Source: Chamaesiphon sp. 341R_metabat_111 (GTDB taxonomy: Bacteria > Cyanobacteriota > Cyanobacteriia > Cyanobacteriales > Chamaesiphonaceae). Taken from it: 33,822 nucleotides of DNA. The stretch's first letter is position 1. Each line of letters starts with the position of its first letter. The stretch is from assembly GCA_025351825.1 (NCBI GenBank), contig JANXVE010000123.1:1-33822 (forward strand), written 5' to 3'. The notes beneath the pieces are model-generated. The model had not been told where the DNA came from and did not search any database. It saw only the letters and a program-made list of their open reading frames with translations. This document shows positions 242-24,895 of this stretch, in pieces. Both the position numbers and the translations under genes were made by a program.

Positions 242-2164
242 CTACTTCGGAAAATAAACCGTACCAATTTGCCCAATCAAAGCAGTTGGTTTGGGATTGG
301 TGAATTCGACTTCAATCCGTTGAGTGGATCGATCGGATTGTGGTATAATATTAGCAATTATCCCGCCTATTTCTTGGCTGTCGATCGCCATTCCGACTTT
401 GACGATCGTGCGTTGGCCAATTTTGAGCAGTCTAGCTACTTGGGGTTCTAGATCTAGACCGATTTTGAGTTTACGAGGGTTGGTAATACTGACTAATCTG
501 ATTCCAGTGGATACTCGATCGCCTGTGGATAGAGCAACCTCGGTGGTAGTGCCAGCAATTGGTGCGGTAATATTGACGGTTGTAGGTTCGAGAACTGGCT
601 TCTGAGTAATTGGTAGATTTTTGGCCGCAATCGGCAGGGTTTTGGGACGTTGGAGTTGTTGCAACCTAATTCCGATCTGTTGGCTATCTGCTTGGGCGGC
701 TTGGAGTTGTGCTTGGAGCTGATGGAGTTGCCCTGCTTGTTCTTTGAGTGCAAGCTGTTGCTGTAGCTGAGTGGATTTAGCTTGAGCGGCTTGTTTGGTA
801 GTCGCGACTTCGGCAGCAGCGATCGCACTATCATAGTCAGACTGGGCAATATTTAGATCGGCTTGGGCGACTGTCATCTCTTTTTCTGCTTGCTCCAGCC
901 GCTCTAGGGAAATTGCACCTTCACTTTGATACTGAGCCAATCGATCGTAGGTGGCTAATGTTCGATCGTAGATTGCTTGAGCACGAGTAATCGCCTCGCG
1001 CTTTTGGTTGAGCACAAATTGTTCTGGTCGATCTGCGCTAACTGTGGTGAGCACATTAGCCTTGGCAACTTGGGCGCGGAGGGGTGCAATATTGCGCTGA
1101 TAATTGACGATTGCTAATTGGATTGTTTTGATGCGTCCGAGAGCTGCTTGCTGTTCGCCCATGAGTAGTTGTTCTTGCTGGCGGACTTGCTGCTGCTGCT
1201 GAAATACTTGTTGCTGCTGCTGGGAGGCTTGCTGAAGTACTGTTTGCTTTTGTCCGGCGACAGCTTGCTGTTGCTGAAGGATCTTGGCTTGGTTAGCTTG
1301 TTCGGCATCAACGTTCCGAATCGTCAATAATGGATCTCCAAGTTGAACCGACTGTCCCACTTTGACATGGGTTGCCACGATCGATCCTGGCATAGTTGCA
1401 TCGATTTTAGTCACATGCAATGGTTCAATTTTGCCCGTAAAGGGGAGATTACCAATTTGCTGAGATCGATCCTGATTGCTAGGCGGATTAGCAGGTTTTT
1501 TTAAGCCCTGTCGGAGTAAATAGAGCGAAAACGTCAGCCCCAATCCCGCTAATACCAGTGCCGCAGCCTGATACCACCCGATTGATTTGCGTGCTTGTCG
1601 GGTTGCCGTAACATCTAAAATTAATTCTGAAGGTAGATCGAATTCGGAATTTGGGGCAATCGACTTATGCTTATTGATGCCAGTTAATTCCAAGCCGCCA
1701 GGATAGTCCATCGGATCTAGCTTCGATTTTCGATCTGACAATCCTGCAACAGCTTTATTTGGAATAAATTTTTCAAATAATCCAGGCGCAATCTGCATAT
1801 AGCCCCGATTGACAAACCGTACCGCATCACAAATTTCTTGAGCTGGGGCACCTTTTAGAATATAACCATTGGCTCCGGCATAGAGCGATTTCGCGACATA
1901 CTCATCGCTATCGTGACTACTTAGGACGAGTACTTTGGTTTTGAGCGAGCTGTGAGAAATAATTTTGGTGGCAAGTACCCCATCTATATCGGGCATCTCC
2001 ATATCCATGAGCACGACATCAGGGAGCAGTAATTTTACCTGCTCGATCGCATCATAGCCATTGTCTACCATGCCGACGATATCAAAGTCTGGCTCAGTCT
2101 CCAATAGGGACTTTAGCCTTTCTCTAATGCTCTTCTGGTCATCTACCAGGAGAATGCGAATCAT
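242..2164 (-). CDS. Receiver domain fused to HlyD-type membrane fusion protein
   Basis: A 640-residue protein. Residues 1-120 are a complete CheY-like receiver of the NarL/FixJ style: acidic pair D8/D9, phospho-acceptor D54 in LMDMEMPD, S82 and K104. A linker follows, then one membrane helix near 197-218. The rest is a periplasmic adaptor of the HlyD/RND-MFP type: first lipoyl-like half near 248-285, a long Gln-rich coiled-coil hairpin about 290-505, second lipoyl half near 527-556, and a beta-barrel C-terminus. The helix-turn-helix usually found after such receivers is absent. I chose the ATG at 2164 because AAGGAA lies six bases upstream; a TTG two codons earlier is the alternative. Inference: a histidine kinase may control assembly or activity of an exporter through this adaptor. 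No ABC or RND partner and no kinase is visible nearby. Confidence 0.88.
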   Translation of the reverse strand: MIRILLVDDQKSIRERLKSLLETEPDFDIVGMVDNGYDAIEQVKLLLPDVVLMDMEMPDIDGVLATKIISHSSLKTKVLVLSSHDSDEYVAKSLYAGANGYILKGAPAQEICDAVRFVNRGYMQIAPGLFEKFIPNKAVAGLSDRKSKLDPMDYPGGLELTGINKHKSIAPNSEFDLPSELILDVTATRQARKSIGWYQAAALVLAGLGLTFSLYLLRQGLKKPANPPSNQDRSQQIGNLPFTGKIEPLHVTKIDATMPGSIVATHVKVGQSVQLGDPLLTIRNVDAEQANQAKILQQQQAVAGQKQTVLQQASQQQQQVFQQQQQVRQQEQLLMGEQQAALGRIKTIQLAIVNYQRNIAPLRAQVAKANVLTTVSADRPEQFVLNQKREAITRAQAIYDRTLATYDRLAQYQSEGAISLERLEQAEKEMTVAQADLNIAQSDYDSAIAAAEVATTKQAAQAKSTQLQQQLALKEQAGQLHQLQAQLQAAQADSQQIGIRLQQLQRPKTLPIAAKNLPITQKPVLEPTTVNITAPIAGTTTEVALSTGDRVSTGIRLVSITNPRKLKIGLDLEPQVARLLKIGQRTIVKVGMAIDSQEIGGIIANIIPQSDRSTQRIEVEFTNPKPTALIGQIGTVYFPK

Positions 2165-2637: not shown

Positions 2638-3309
2638 TTAGAATCTGTCGTCTGCTTGTCGATCGATCGATTTGCCTTTGATATTGAGCCAATGTTCTCG
2701 GTAGAGTAATTCTAGCTGATTTCCCGCGCCGCGAAATAAGTTGATTTGACCAAATATCAATCCTTGAAATAGCCGATAAAAGCCGAGACTGACGATCGCG
2801 ACGATCATGCCAGTCGCTGTGGAAATTAAGGATTCGCTAATCCCCAAAGTTACCGTGCCACCAGCGGAGGTGCCCAAATCGCCTAGTTTGATCCCACTGA
2901 GCGATCGAATCAAGCCTAATACTGTTCCGAGTAATCCCAGCAAGGGAGCCAGGGCGATGATTGATTCCAAGGATTTATCACCCTTTCGCATCTTGGCAAT
3001 TTCTTCCTCTGCTGATGCTTCGAGGGCGAGTTTGAATGTCTCAGGATCGGGATTTGTGCGCTTGAGCGGAGCGTAGAGAAATCTGCCAATTGGTTTGCGA
3101 TTGCGTTCTTGTTTGGCAATTTGGGCAGCGGTGTCCCATTCATCATTGGCACTAGCTTCTAATACCCGCTCGATCAGTTCTTCTTCTTTCCTAGTCGTTT
3201 TGAACCAAAACCACAGCCGTTCAAAGATTGTCGCTAATGATAAAATTGACAACCCAAATAATGGCCACATCGTTGCACCACCTTTCTCAAACAATTCTCT
3301 AGCATCCAT
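2638..3309 (-). CDS. MotA/TolQ/ExbB proton channel family protein
   Basis: A 223-residue membrane protein with the TolQ/ExbB layout: one helix near residues 14-34, a cytoplasmic stretch of about 80 residues, then two helices near 115-180. The second helix holds APLLGLLGTVLGLI, the family signature, and the third holds GISESLISTATGMIVAI, where ExbB/TolQ have their conserved Thr and small residues. Proteins of this family form the ion channel of motors that energise outer-membrane transport or cell-envelope processes together with an ExbD/TolR subunit. No ExbD/TolR gene is adjacent; the next gene downstream on the same strand is the receiver-HlyD fusion, 473 bp away. Exact role unknown. Confidence 0.88.
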   Translation of the reverse strand: MDARELFEKGGATMWPLFGLSILSLATIFERLWFWFKTTRKEEELIERVLEASANDEWDTAAQIAKQERNRKPIGRFLYAPLKRTNPDPETFKLALEASAEEEIAKMRKGDKSLESIIALAPLLGLLGTVLGLIRSLSGIKLGDLGTSAGGTVTLGISESLISTATGMIVAIVSLGFYRLFQGLIFGQINLFRGAGNQLELLYREHWLNIKGKSIDRQADDRF

Positions 3310-11992: not shown

Positions 11993-12418
11993 TCATAAAG
12001 ACCAATCTTCGTTCTTTAATCCTGGCACCTGCTCAAAATCTTTGCGATTGCGGGTGATAACAATGCCATCGTGGGCAAGAGTAATGGACGCAATACGGAG
12101 ATCTTGCGTTCCAATCCGAATTCCCATTTGTCGAAACTGTCTAAAATAATCGTCAGCCACGAGACTATATGGCAGAATTTCCAACTCAGAGAAAAAAGAA
12201 ACCGTTGCAATGAGTCGATTGTAAGCAGCAACCAAAACTTCAGGCGTTCTTGCCTTCCTAATCTGAGCTAACCGCCCAGTACATTGTTCCTCGACTGTAA
12301 TTGCAGTCGTTTTGATGATTACACCATTTGCTCTTGCGATCCTAATGCGATTGAAAAGCTGTGAATGATTACGTTGATAAAGACTCAAAAGATCGGTATC
12401 AATAACGTATAAGGTCAT
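11993..12418 (-). CDS. PIN-domain toxin (VapC-like)
   Basis: A 141-residue PIN-domain nuclease. The expected acidic residues are present: D7 in YVIDTDLLSLY, E43/E44 in TVEEQC, D106 in GTQDLRIA, and D127 in TRNRKDF. VapC-type toxins cleave tRNA or rRNA when freed from their antitoxin. Its ATG overlaps the antitoxin stop by four bases (ATGA), the usual translationally coupled arrangement. The module lies opposite to the genes on both sides and is bracketed by the 75-bp direct repeat, consistent with later arrival. Confidence 0.88.
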   Translation of the reverse strand: MTLYVIDTDLLSLYQRNHSQLFNRIRIARANGVIIKTTAITVEEQCTGRLAQIRKARTPEVLVAAYNRLIATVSFFSELEILPYSLVADDYFRQFRQMGIRIGTQDLRIASITLAHDGIVITRNRKDFEQVPGLKNEDWSL

Positions 12419-12732
12419 CGATTAACCTCTGCTGCATCAACCTCATGACGATAGGCTTTCATTTCTGCTAAAAAATCATCAAAAGTCGGATCGTCTTTGA
12501 AAATTCCGGCATTGGCAATCCAGGGGTCACTTTTTTCCAACGATTTCTCACTGAGCACATCAATATCGATTGTGACTAGTTTTCCATTCTTAAACTGAGC
12601 ATCAAGAATGTCTTTGAGTCTATCGATTGCCTCTTTCTCTGTGATCCCATTGGCGGTTACATTTGGCAATCCCACGACAGAAGCCATGAAATTTCGATCT
12701 GTGGGATTTTGGACAAATACTTGATACTGCAT
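12415..12732 (-). CDS. Antitoxin of the PIN toxin, HicB-like N-terminal fold
   Basis: A 105-residue protein, first gene of the two-gene module. The N-terminus (MQYQVFVQNPTDRNFMASVVGLP, shared pattern with ITEKEAIDRLKDIL) resembles the HicB/UPF0150 partial RNase-H fold. The C-terminal part (DPTFDDFLAEMKAYRHEVD) is acidic and helical, as expected for a segment that wraps a PIN active site. No DNA-binding motif of the AbrB, RHH or Phd type is seen, so autoregulation may use another route. A possible promoter in the minus direction is TTGGTT, 16 bases, TAAAAT, with the -35 inside copy 2 of the 75-bp repeat. Confidence 0.75.
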   Translation of the reverse strand: MQYQVFVQNPTDRNFMASVVGLPNVTANGITEKEAIDRLKDILDAQFKNGKLVTIDIDVLSEKSLEKSDPWIANAGIFKDDPTFDDFLAEMKAYRHEVDAAEVNR

Positions 12733-22763: not shown

Positions 22764-23108
22764 CTACAAATACAAAATAATTCTGATGCCGTCGTCTACC
22801 TCCAATTGCAAGTCATCTGGAAGTGAACCAATTCTCTCCACTAAGAATTTCTTGTCTAACGTGAGAATCTGAGATACATTTGCTACTGAATCTTTCGGTA
22901 AACCCGATGCAGCTCGTGGCAACAACACATTGCCTGGAGCTGCTGCCAAATTAAGGTTGGAAGTTATAATCACCACGATGACGGTATTGATGTTGCTTTG
23001 AGTAAAAGTGTCATCTTGAATCACCAACACAGGACGATTATACCCAGGCTCCGAGCCTACTGGTTCTGGTAAGTTTGCCCACCAAATTTCTCCTCGATAC
23101 ATTACCAT
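22764..23108 (-). CDS. MazF/PemK-type mRNA interferase toxin
   Basis: A 114-residue protein with the MazF/PemK opening YRGEIWWANLPEPVGSEPGYNRPVLVIQ, including the RGEI-W and G-R-P-V-L-V-I-Q motifs, a serine/threonine strand (VVIITSNL) and VANVSQILTLDKKFL. These toxins cut mRNA at short recognition sites. The ATG at 23108 overlaps the antitoxin; a second ATG at 23102 (TAATG overlap) is equally plausible. It is the second gene of a two-gene operon. Confidence 0.9.
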   Translation of the reverse strand: MVMYRGEIWWANLPEPVGSEPGYNRPVLVIQDDTFTQSNINTVIVVIITSNLNLAAAPGNVLLPRAASGLPKDSVANVSQILTLDKKFLVERIGSLPDDLQLEVDDGIRIILYL

Positions 23109-23570: not shown

Positions 23571-23870
23571 ATGCATCTAATTTCGATTACCAATCTCCGA
23601 GAAGATGTAGCACAATATCCTGATGCTGATAGGGCAATTGGGAACTGGTTTAAAACAATCGAGGAGGCTCGATGGCAAAATCTTGAAGAAGTTCGTCAAT
23701 CATTTAAAGATGCTGAAGCTGTCGGCAATTTTACAGTCTTCAATATTAAAGGAAATAACTATCGATTAATAGTAGGAATAGATTATGAACGTCAGGTTAT
23801 CTATTACAAATATTTTTTGACTCACGCTGACTATAGCAAGGACAAGTGGAAAAATGACCCTTACTTTTAA
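23571..23870 (+). CDS. higB: HigB-type toxin
   Basis: A 99-residue RelE-fold mRNA interferase of the HigB_toxin family. Recognisable parts are DADRAIGNWFKTIEEARWQNLEEVRQSF, VFNIKGNNYRLIVGIDY and the C-terminal IYYKYFLTHADYSKDKW with the conserved H-x-x-Y/K end. These toxins cut mRNA on the ribosome. Its 3' end overlaps the antitoxin by 17 bases, giving the toxin-first order typical of higBA. ATG start at 23571. Confidence 0.9.
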   Translation: MHLISITNLREDVAQYPDADRAIGNWFKTIEEARWQNLEEVRQSFKDAEAVGNFTVFNIKGNNYRLIVGIDYERQVIYYKYFLTHADYSKDKWKNDPYF

Positions 23871-24261
23871 TCAAGAGCAATATACCGAACTGCTAATTAA
23901 GTATCAGCCTAAAATTATTGAAACGGAAGCAGAATACCGACAAGCTCTAGCCGTAATCGAACATTTCGTCTTCAAAAAAGAGCGGAGCTTAGAAGAACTG
24001 GCACTGTATGACTTAGCTCTGATGCTAGTCAAAGACTACGAATCTAAAACTTGTCTGATGGATGATTGGAGGTCGCAATCTCCAACCGAAATGTTGCAAT
24101 ATTTATTAGAATCCAGTGGCAAAAGGCAATCGGATCTGGTTGGTATCATCGGTTCAAGTGGCATCGTTTCGGAAGTCGTCAATGGTAAGCGATCGATTAG
24201 CAAATCTCAGGCTAGAAAACTTGGTGAAATATTCCAGGTTTCGCCGAGTTTATTTATTTAG
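23854..24261 (+). CDS. higA: HigA-type antitoxin
   Basis: A 135-residue antitoxin. The N-terminal half (QYTELLIKYQPKIIETEAEYRQAL) is the helical region seen in this HigA subgroup. The C-terminal half has an Xre-like helix-turn-helix (MLQYLLESSGKRQSDLVGIIG, then SEVVNGKRSISKSQARKL). It should neutralise HigB and repress its own promoter, where a palindrome overlaps the -10. Confidence 0.9.
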   Translation: MTLTFNQEQYTELLIKYQPKIIETEAEYRQALAVIEHFVFKKERSLEELALYDLALMLVKDYESKTCLMDDWRSQSPTEMLQYLLESSGKRQSDLVGIIGSSGIVSEVVNGKRSISKSQARKLGEIFQVSPSLFI

Positions 24262-24459
24262 TCGATCGCTAGCCAACTGCATATTCGGTAAATTGACGCT
24301 TAAAAGGAGAGTGGGCAGTGTATGGCGATTGACTCAGCAAAATCTTTGGAGCGTGGCAACAACCTTGTTAGGCTTGAAGTCAAGAGCAGGTGAGTCAAAT
24401 TTTGGATGTAGCCGAACAGATGGTCAGCACTAGGTGAGTAGAGTCGATCATCGCCTATA
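24262..24459. other. Gap upstream of mqsA-like gene
   Basis: I looked for an MqsR or other small toxin in the three plus-strand frames. Only a 23-codon frame starting MAIDSAKSLERGNNLVRLE with a GGAGAG upstream was seen. It is too short to assign. Confidence 0.4.
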
Positions 24460-24476
24460 TTAACCAAGTAGGTTAA
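24460..24476 (+). promoter_or_regulatory. MqsA-type operator palindrome
   Basis: TTAACC-AAGTA-GGTTAA is a perfect palindrome around a 5-base centre. Its core AACCA-AGT-AGGTT differs by one base from the AACCT-N3-AGGTT site bound by E. coli MqsA. It begins at the end of a TATATT -10-like box (24456-24461) and lies 14 bases before the mqsA-like ATG. A weaker relative (AACCT-N4-AGGCT) occurs at 24361-24374. Confidence 0.7.
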
Positions 24477-24490
24477 CATAAAGAAAAAGT

Positions 24491-24895
24491 ATGAAATGTC
24501 TGTCCTGTGGAATGGCAGAGTTGGTGAAGGACATTCGCGATCTGCCCTACACTTATAAAGGTGAATCAACGGCTATTACTGAGGTCGAGGGAGACTTCTG
24601 TGCGGCATGTGGCGAGTGTGTGCTAAACCCGCAGGAATCAGCGCGGGTAAGCATAGCGATGTTGGAGTTCAACAAACAAGTTAATGCTGCAATCGTCGAT
24701 CCGCTGTTTATTACTAGAGTTAGAAAGAAGCTCTCGCTCGACCAACAGGAAGCAGCAACGCTATTTGGCGGCGGGGTTAATGCTTTCTCTCGGTATGAGA
24801 CGGGCAAAACTAAACCGCCCCTAGCGTTGGTTAGGTTGCTTCAACTGCTCGATCTTCATCCCGATCTGTTGAGTGAAATCAGAACGTCGATTTAA
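24491..24895 (+). CDS. mqsA: MqsA-type antitoxin without adjacent toxin
   Basis: A 134-residue protein with the two-domain MqsA layout. The zinc knuckle cysteines C3, C6, C37 and C40 fall at the same positions as in E. coli MqsA. The C-terminal helix-turn-helix (VRKKLSLDQQEAATLFGGGVNAFSRYETGK) keeps N97 and R101, which contact DNA in E. coli. Length (134 versus 131) also agrees. In E. coli the toxin gene mqsR lies directly upstream; the 229 bp upstream here contain no recognisable MqsR. It may work as a stand-alone repressor, pair with another toxin, or be a leftover. Confidence 0.88.
   Translation: MKCLSCGMAELVKDIRDLPYTYKGESTAITEVEGDFCAACGECVLNPQESARVSIAMLEFNKQVNAAIVDPLFITRVRKKLSLDQQEAATLFGGGVNAFSRYETGKTKPPLALVRLLQLLDLHPDLLSEIRTSI

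Follow-up and report, generated by a model that had tools for sequence, protein, structure and literature searches.

Alg44, the regulatory subunit of alginate synthase, consists of a PilZ domain, a transmembrane (TM) helix and an HlyD part, in that order. Alg44 combines PilZ with HlyD_3, and the accessible part of one survey reports no PilZ+HlyD_3 protein in cyanobacteria (Pereira et al., 2015; PMC4594306). The Pel system, built on a PelDEFG core, is controlled post-translationally through PelD, as described in the available portion of one study (PMC7112168). In cyanobacteria, the HlyD-like protein XcsB of the XcsAB–TolC cellulose secretion route has been proposed, in the text available of that report, to work with a polysaccharide synthase (PMC12430437). 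The Alg44 homologues without PilZ in Phormidesmis priestleyi BC1401 are HlyD proteins considered to be parts of exopolysaccharide (EPS) machinery, and the accessible part of the source tabulates 14 HlyD genes with neither a PilZ nor a receiver domain listed (PMC4971617). Two-component control of a cyanobacterial EPS is known from the synechan system XssS–XssR–XssQ, in which, according to the excerpt available, XssR has no DNA-binding domain and the route acts on transcription (PMC13125312). Response regulators that fit no class exist (PMC9953108), and little is known of the cytoplasmic parts of adaptors (PMC8277102), as far as the accessible parts of both sources go.

The protein described here is encoded at one end of a 33,822-nucleotide stretch of DNA (the window) from the cyanobacterium Chamaesiphon sp. 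341R_metabat_111. Like Alg44, it joins a predicted cytosolic signalling domain, a TM helix and an HlyD part, and its family is encoded beside an exopolysaccharide glycosyltransferase; unlike Alg44, it carries a receiver in place of PilZ, its partner is a GT4 glycosyltransferase of PelF type instead of Alg8, and its signal would be a phosphoryl group instead of c-di-GMP. The likeness to the Pel system lies in PelF, recognised by a curated model, whereas no PelD is found over cut-off, the membrane partner is not PelG and an HlyD adaptor is present. With XcsAB–TolC the locus shares an HlyD-like adaptor proposed for a polysaccharide synthase, but there PilZ sits on the synthase and here a receiver sits on the adaptor; with the P. 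priestleyi proteins it shares HlyD proteins regarded as candidate EPS components. The receiver resembles those of NarL/FixJ regulators (VraR/LiaR, DesR and NarL) in sequence and fold, although their C-terminal GerE helix-turn-helix (HTH) is replaced here by a linker, a TM helix and an adaptor. Two-component control of EPS, as proposed here, would be shared with synechan, which is controlled via the transcriptional regulator XssQ, whereas here the target would be a part of the machine. Among the literature matches listed (titles and starts of abstracts, most subscription journals lying outside the coverage), no receiver-HlyD or receiver-co-polymerase protein is described, in agreement with the initial annotation, which knew of no characterised example. 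On balance, the protein is probably a membrane-anchored response regulator that also serves as adaptor in a Pel-like machine for exopolysaccharide synthesis and export, gated by phosphorylation.

The fusion gene and its protein

The start of the gene (Table 1) is preceded by AAGGA, 7 nt 5' of the ATG at 2164, on direct reading, whereas an ORF tool gave a TTG at 2170 as the start. In the 640-aa protein, the Pfam models above cut-off are Response_reg (91 bits at residues 4–116; cut-off 30.2), HlyD_3 (40.4 bits), HlyD_D23 (37.2 bits) and Biotin_lipoyl (22.4 bits against a cut-off of 22.1), and Biotin_lipoyl_2 stays below its cut-off (26.2 versus 29.8 bits). A hydropathy scan finds a single hydrophobic segment, at residues 199–217, and no HTH or PilZ model is found among six Pfam models up to E 1. 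The description from which the analysis started, an intact receiver carried on a TM-HlyD adaptor in one frame with no HTH output, is thus upheld by these matches, with the linker, TM helix and adaptor standing where the output domain would be.

Table 1. Features of the receiver-HlyD fusion gene and the adjoining contig end, in window coordinates.
Feature	Position	Strand	Basis
REC-TM-HlyD fusion protein, 640 aa	242..2164	-	ATG 2164, stop 242-244; frame read directly, Pfam, AlphaFold
Receiver and NarL-type tail, residues 1-135	1760..2164	-	Response_reg 91 bits; D8, D9, D54, S82, K104
Variable linker, residues ~136-195	1580..1759	-	56-75% identity in five Chamaesiphon pairs
TM helix, residues 198-219	1508..1573	-	Hydropathy 199-217; AlphaFold helix of low confidence
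HlyD adaptor, predicted periplasmic: lipoyl halves, helical hairpin 285-504, barrel	245..1420	-	HlyD_3, HlyD_D23, AlphaFold
Repeat at contig end	1..98	+	Identical to end of contig C197

An AlphaFold model built from 7 sequences gives a receiver fold at residues 2–119 (block pLDDT 63–86) and helices at residues 198–219 (the TM helix), 285–372, 380–414 and 420–504; its mean pLDDT is only 56.7, and therefore only local folds are used. The HlyD features present are the two models HlyD_3 and HlyD_D23 over cut-off, the TM segment and, in this low-confidence model, the hairpin. EmrA (4tko) is a weak structural match only (rmsd 26.6). The tip of the window adaptor, RLAQYQSEGAIS at residues 408–419, comes near the pattern RxxxLxxxxxxS, having Y for L. 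This pattern, which we take to be the TolC-docking tip motif of adaptors, is exact in genomes G091, G255 and G411, has Y for L in Chamaesiphon and has no match in loci L035 and L036.

The phosphorylation residues named in the initial annotation (D8/D9, D54, S82 and K104) are indeed present in the window receiver and are invariant in 7/7 aligned orthologues. The top curated models for this receiver are MctR, UvrY/SirA/GacA and NarL, all scoring far below their cut-offs because the output domain is missing, and the nearest solved structures are VraR/LiaR, DesR and NarL; judged by its sequence, this is a NarL-type receiver. The gene immediately upstream of the fusion gene belongs to the MotA/ExbB family (window 2638–3309, minus strand, 105.5 bits), and an ExbB-like and ExbD-like pair is seen by eye near a receiver-HlyD gene of G070 (L119:4643-5953); the occurrence of ExbB-type genes near both fusions may be a coincidence. 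Elsewhere in the window, toxin-antitoxin-like genes are seen by eye at 11993–12732 (minus), 22764–23108 (minus) and 23854–24895 (plus), their types being PIN-like with HicB-like, MazF-like and HTH antitoxin-like.

Recurrence and gene neighbourhood

The fusion is found in 10 genomes including that of the window, one of the 10 (G411) having a degenerate receiver. The nine further genomes are those of loci L031–L036, L127 (G391), L095 (G091) and L126 (G411); loci L031–L037, which come from a scan of one genome per species, belong to G386, G389, G387, G390, G395, G394 and G392, respectively, each counted once. Whole-fusion identities are 85% (L031), 80% (L032), 74% (L033), 70% (L034), 45% (L035) and 43% (L036). 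Separate receiver and HlyD genes in all close relatives, joined here by a local assembly error, had been considered in the initial annotation; instead, the fusion is kept in nine other genomes. In one relative, G255 (L094), the TM-HlyD protein is the same but its N-terminus is short, and the 16-kb stretch contains no receiver. A plasmid origin was rejected: seven plasmid records match, all in the receiver and none over 80% of the protein.

The gene downstream of the adaptor gene encodes a GT4 glycosyltransferase that the NCBIfam equivalog NF038011 identifies as PelF in 2/2 proteins tested (127.6 and 133.6 bits; cut-off 100). PelF-like genes at E ≤ 1e-30 occur in 3/386 genomes of the phylum sample, scanned with three candidates scored per genome, and in 11/60 relatives, namely 8/9 of the genus, 2/2 of the sister genus and G411. 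Among 13 distinct PelF-bearing genomes, the adaptor gene adjoins the PelF-like gene on the same strand in 10, a count that includes G393, where only the adaptor's last 187 residues are present. The three exceptions are G000, where the contig ends, G387, where the two genes are on separate contigs, and G388, where pelF is present and starts 108 bp from a contig end and the Pel-type adaptor was not found.

The pelF-like gene is followed by a gene for a polytopic membrane protein of about 513 aa (TM513), which is whole in seven of the nine loci that reach so far (L031, L032, L036, L061, L094, L126 and L127). In L035 it is split, and the G091 stretch does not contain it. At L035:9234-10786, a membrane gene of about 520 aa lies in frames of 157 and 360 aa, and it is whole in L036. 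No Pfam or NCBIfam model matches TM513 over cut-off, and its AlphaFold model is useless (pLDDT 43.8). Its identification with PelG was rejected, PF16933 being found in 0/6 genomes at E ≤ 10 and hhalign giving a probability of 1.3%. PelD (PF16963) is over cut-off in 0/9 genomes, with two weak matches (E 0.63 and 0.82); the 14 control genomes are also without a PF16963 match, and divergent PelDs can escape this model, according to the accessible part of one source (PMC7112168). A linked ABC or RND pump, as foreseen at the outset, is not what accompanies the gene: the partners are the PelF-type glycosyltransferase and the membrane protein of about 513 aa.

In the window genome, the pelF-like and TM513 genes lie at the end of contig C197, in the strand and order expected downstream, and the contig ends of the window and C197 share 98 identical bp. 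This stretch is a repeat, and adaptor-pelF adjacency in the window genome therefore rests on synteny; the joining of contigs C197 and C99 by the 98-bp identity is not claimed. Positions 1–141 of the window form a repeat with inverted halves, of which copies of 93–141 bp with 97–100% identity occur at 13 places outside the window, C197 among them and four at contig ends; it probably represents a MITE-like element at which the assembly broke off.

Other neighbours vary. In L031 the gene before the adaptor gene is GlcNAc-2-epimerase-like (PF07221), and L033, L034, L037 and L127 have such a gene by eye; none is seen by eye in L032, L035, L036 or the window. Locus L037 (G392) has a shortened fusion whose frame ends after the TM-equivalent region. 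The gene that follows, deoC-like by eye, is the one found next to TM513 in L127; the 3.9-kb stretch contains no TM513, and no PelF-like gene was found in the genome at E ≤ 1e-30. The G392 genome is 89% complete, so the joint loss is suggestive only.

Constraint on the receiver, its decay and its history

In five pairs formed by the window and Chamaesiphon relatives, constraint is strongest on the receiver. It is 96–100% identical with dN/dS of 0.000–0.015, against 64–84% and 0.117–0.165 for the HlyD part in the same pairs; PelF gives 0.054–0.076 (four pairs) and TM513 gives 0.051–0.095 (three pairs). These ratios are rough, since dS is above 1 in three of the five pairs for the receiver and in four for HlyD, but the least diverged pair keeps the contrast (0.000 versus 0.117). 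In a sixth pair, L035/L036, the contrast is small (0.041 for the receiver versus 0.059 for HlyD). Receivers evolve more slowly than coiled coils in any case.

This constraint bears on whether the receiver switches at all. It could be a structural module that dimerises or docks constitutively, or a phosphate sink, and pass on no switching signal. Such a role would accommodate the three receivers, out of 28 aligned across the wider class, that lack phosphorylation residues, namely L120 (N54), L126 (EQ for the acidic pair) and L201 (DAGGK), as well as the lack of any receiver in G255. It would also fit the scarcity of linked kinases: a co-conserved kinase gene, which the initial annotation suggested looking for, did not emerge, a kinase gene being found in 1/16 stretches scanned (three of them longer copies of others), beside an OmpR-type regulator in L032, by a phmmer scan with two query kinases that could miss HisKA_3 types. 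A structural role is nevertheless unlikely, because all five phosphorylation positions are kept in 25 of the 28 receivers (counting one with E for D8 and one with T for S82) and because the Chamaesiphon receiver hardly changes, beyond what docking alone would need.

A phosphorylation-gated adaptor is the preferred reading. In such a machine, the cytosolic receiver would lie beside the PelF-type glycosyltransferase and TM513, and the HlyD part would form a conduit in the periplasm that would probably lead to a TolC-type channel. D54 would receive its phosphoryl group from a histidine kinase encoded elsewhere, the ensuing change in receiver conformation or dimerisation would act on the linker and TM helix of an oligomeric adaptor, and the state of the adaptor would switch synthesis or export without transcription, much as c-di-GMP acts via Alg44 or PelD. 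A post-translational role is thus the favoured, though putative, function of the fusion. The computed parts of this explanation are the anatomy, conservation, gene linkage and strong constraint on the receiver in Chamaesiphon, and from these we infer phosphorylation, a kinase, gating, topology, complex formation, the identity of the polymer and the direction of control.

The receiver is not kept everywhere. The L126 (G411) receiver is degenerate: EQ replaces its acidic pair, and its score of 28.4 bits falls short of the Response_reg cut-off of 30.2; with an operon lacking the receiver in G255 and one lacking the acidic pair in G411, the receiver is therefore dispensable there. The HlyD tree pairs G411 and G255 as sisters (96/97), at an unresolved fork with receiver-bearing relatives; the PelF tree unites both with G091 (100/99), whose receiver is intact. 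The simplest history suggested by these trees would be one gain of the receiver with later decay and loss. The degenerate G411 receiver stands apart from the other Pel-type ones, so a separate gain is possible; in the two receiver trees that include it, of 57 and 89 rows, it groups with the C39-ABC-type receiver of G388 (89/85 and 93/86), both branches being long.

Receiver fusions on other envelope machines

Receiver matches at E ≤ 1e-30 in long TM-fused frames occur in at least 4/386 genomes of the phylum sample (G000, G091, G070 and G296); this is a minimum, scoring having covered three candidates in each genome. In total, 29 fusions in 19 genomes were collected, G411's degenerate one included; they were found by similarity and therefore give no frequency. 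Ten are of the Pel type. Eleven carry an HlyD of the type encoded beside C39-peptidase ABC exporters (L122, L123, L124, L125, L158, L194, L195, L196, L198, L200 and L201), an assignment based on Pfam for L122, L124, L125 and the L124 exporter and on similarity and inspection by eye for the others; L125 has no adjacent exporter. L119 carries another HlyD and has no hydropathy segment over threshold, its TM helix being assumed. L118 is DevB-like and accompanied by an FtsX-type permease and an ABC ATPase (Pfam). Five fusions in glycosyltransferase clusters (L121, L192, L193, L197 and L199) are co-polymerase-like, a naming drawn from GNVR scores of 24.5, 24.0, 15.3 and 12.2 below the cut-off of 27.7 (four loci, without L193), two TM segments, the cluster context and, for L199, a weak match to Wzz; L192 has a Wzx-like protein over cut-off and L199 a Wzy_C match below cut-off. 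The last, L120, is a BON fusion (27.2 bits; cut-off 27).

Two members with altered receivers are L201:5550-7448 (G436), a receiver-HlyD gene that lies next to a gene of exporter size and has lost D9, D54 and S82 from its receiver, and L120:5540-6544 (minus strand, G070), a REC-TM-BON protein with N at the phospho-acceptor position. Related receivers also occur at L203:4476-5492, L204:5076-6098, L205:1477-2553 and L090, followed by about 200 aa without HTH-like length or a TM segment; in L203–L205 the next gene encodes 193–215 aa, and the receiver has another unnamed output.

The fusions with exporter-type HlyDs raise the alternative that the window protein serves an ordinary protein or lipid exporter (ABC/T1SS-like), its place beside pelF being secondary. 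Other receiver-HlyD fusions do have C39-peptidase ABC exporters or DevCA-like genes as neighbours (confirmed by Pfam in L124 and L118, seen by eye elsewhere), and a divergently transcribed ABC exporter adjoins the Pel-type adaptor gene in L035 and L036, the only such cases by eye. This alternative is improbable, however, given pelF next to the adaptor gene in 10/13 genomes, the lack of an adjacent ABC gene by eye in L031, L032, L094, L095, L126 and L127, and an HlyD tree that sets the Pel-type HlyD part apart from the C39-ABC type, with weak support (78/97). It is highly improbable that annotation or assembly created the fusion artificially, or that processing yields two separate products: the window does end 241 bp past the gene, in a repeat, but direct reading finds no in-frame stop in the 242–2164 minus-strand frame, and an assembly artefact is ruled out by the same fusion in other assemblies, that of L127 (G391) on a 6.28-Mb contig.

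Whether the TM-fused receivers share one origin was addressed with trees of increasing scope. In a tree of 57 rows, all 18 rows labelled as fusions (one of them, L090, being a soluble helical protein) fall on one side of a branch (99/92). In a tree of 89 rows, the 27 rows labelled as TM-fused are not one clade and need 4 changes, the labels including a wrongly picked ORF for L126 and the intruding row L180 being a 145-aa fragment. With seven rows dropped (L126 twice, L180, L125, L201, L006 and L007), the resulting 82-row tree requires 2 changes for 24 TM-fused rows; a single clade is recovered in 10% of the bootstraps, and the AU test does not reject it (p 0.427). A single clade for all TM-fused receivers, which failed in the 89-row tree and appears in that small share of the 82-row bootstraps, is not claimed. 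The eight Pel and five co-polymerase receivers do group together (97/85 in the 82-row tree, 96/84 in the 89-row tree), so two polysaccharide machines share a receiver lineage.

The C39-ABC-type fusion used as a query matches 67/386 genomes at E ≤ 1e-42, and among the matches listed only those in G296 (three proteins), G000 and G070 begin ahead of query residue 142; HlyDs related to this fusion are thus mostly without a receiver. L158:6419-8560 (G296) combines the same kind of HlyD with a receiver that is clearly of another sort, scoring 24.6 bits with the Pel receiver profile and too divergent to be placed in the trees; it may be a separate fusion, which suggests that fusion occurred repeatedly. 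A wider proposal, possible and put forward tentatively, is that cyanobacteria have a class of response regulators with envelope-machine outputs, in which receivers derived from NarL-type regulators, after loss of the DNA-binding domain, became attached to adaptors and co-polymerases of at least four machines and gate these directly by phosphorylation: the Pel-like synthase, Wzx/Wzy-type polysaccharide clusters, C39-peptidase ABC exporters and a DevBCA-like exporter.

The possible polymer and the meaning of the fusion

The nearest PelFs in a plasmid collection are from Deinococcus and Streptomyces (30.5–32.6% identity). In all three of these loci that were read, an unnamed protein of 464–516 aa follows PelF, and two of these proteins align with TM513 at 18–19% identity, too low for proof of kinship. 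Genes for handling galactosamine polymers lie beside PelF in 2/3 of them: one locus has an Agd3-like deacetylase over cut-off, and another has genes annotated as spherulation-specific family 4 and endo-alpha-1,4-polygalactosaminidase; the part of the third locus seen has neither. Among the relatives, G091 has a spherulin-4 protein after pelF and a sugar epimerase further on, and G255 has a polysaccharide deacetylase with RTX repeats two genes upstream. Agd3 and spherulin-4 are presumed here to act on galactosamine polymers. Because Agd3-like, spherulin-4, deacetylase and epimerase genes occur near PelFs, one guess for the polymer would be a partly deacetylated galactosamine polymer.

A receiver of the kind used in gene switches, built through the membrane into part of a putative machine for making and exporting a slime polysaccharide, suggests that the cell may control this machine directly. 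D54 offers one mutable residue with which direct two-component control of slime or sheath formation could be tested, and the intact, degenerate and absent receivers of related operons provide a natural comparison. With the receiver recurring on several unrelated machines, the range of response-regulator outputs would grow to include export adaptors and co-polymerases.
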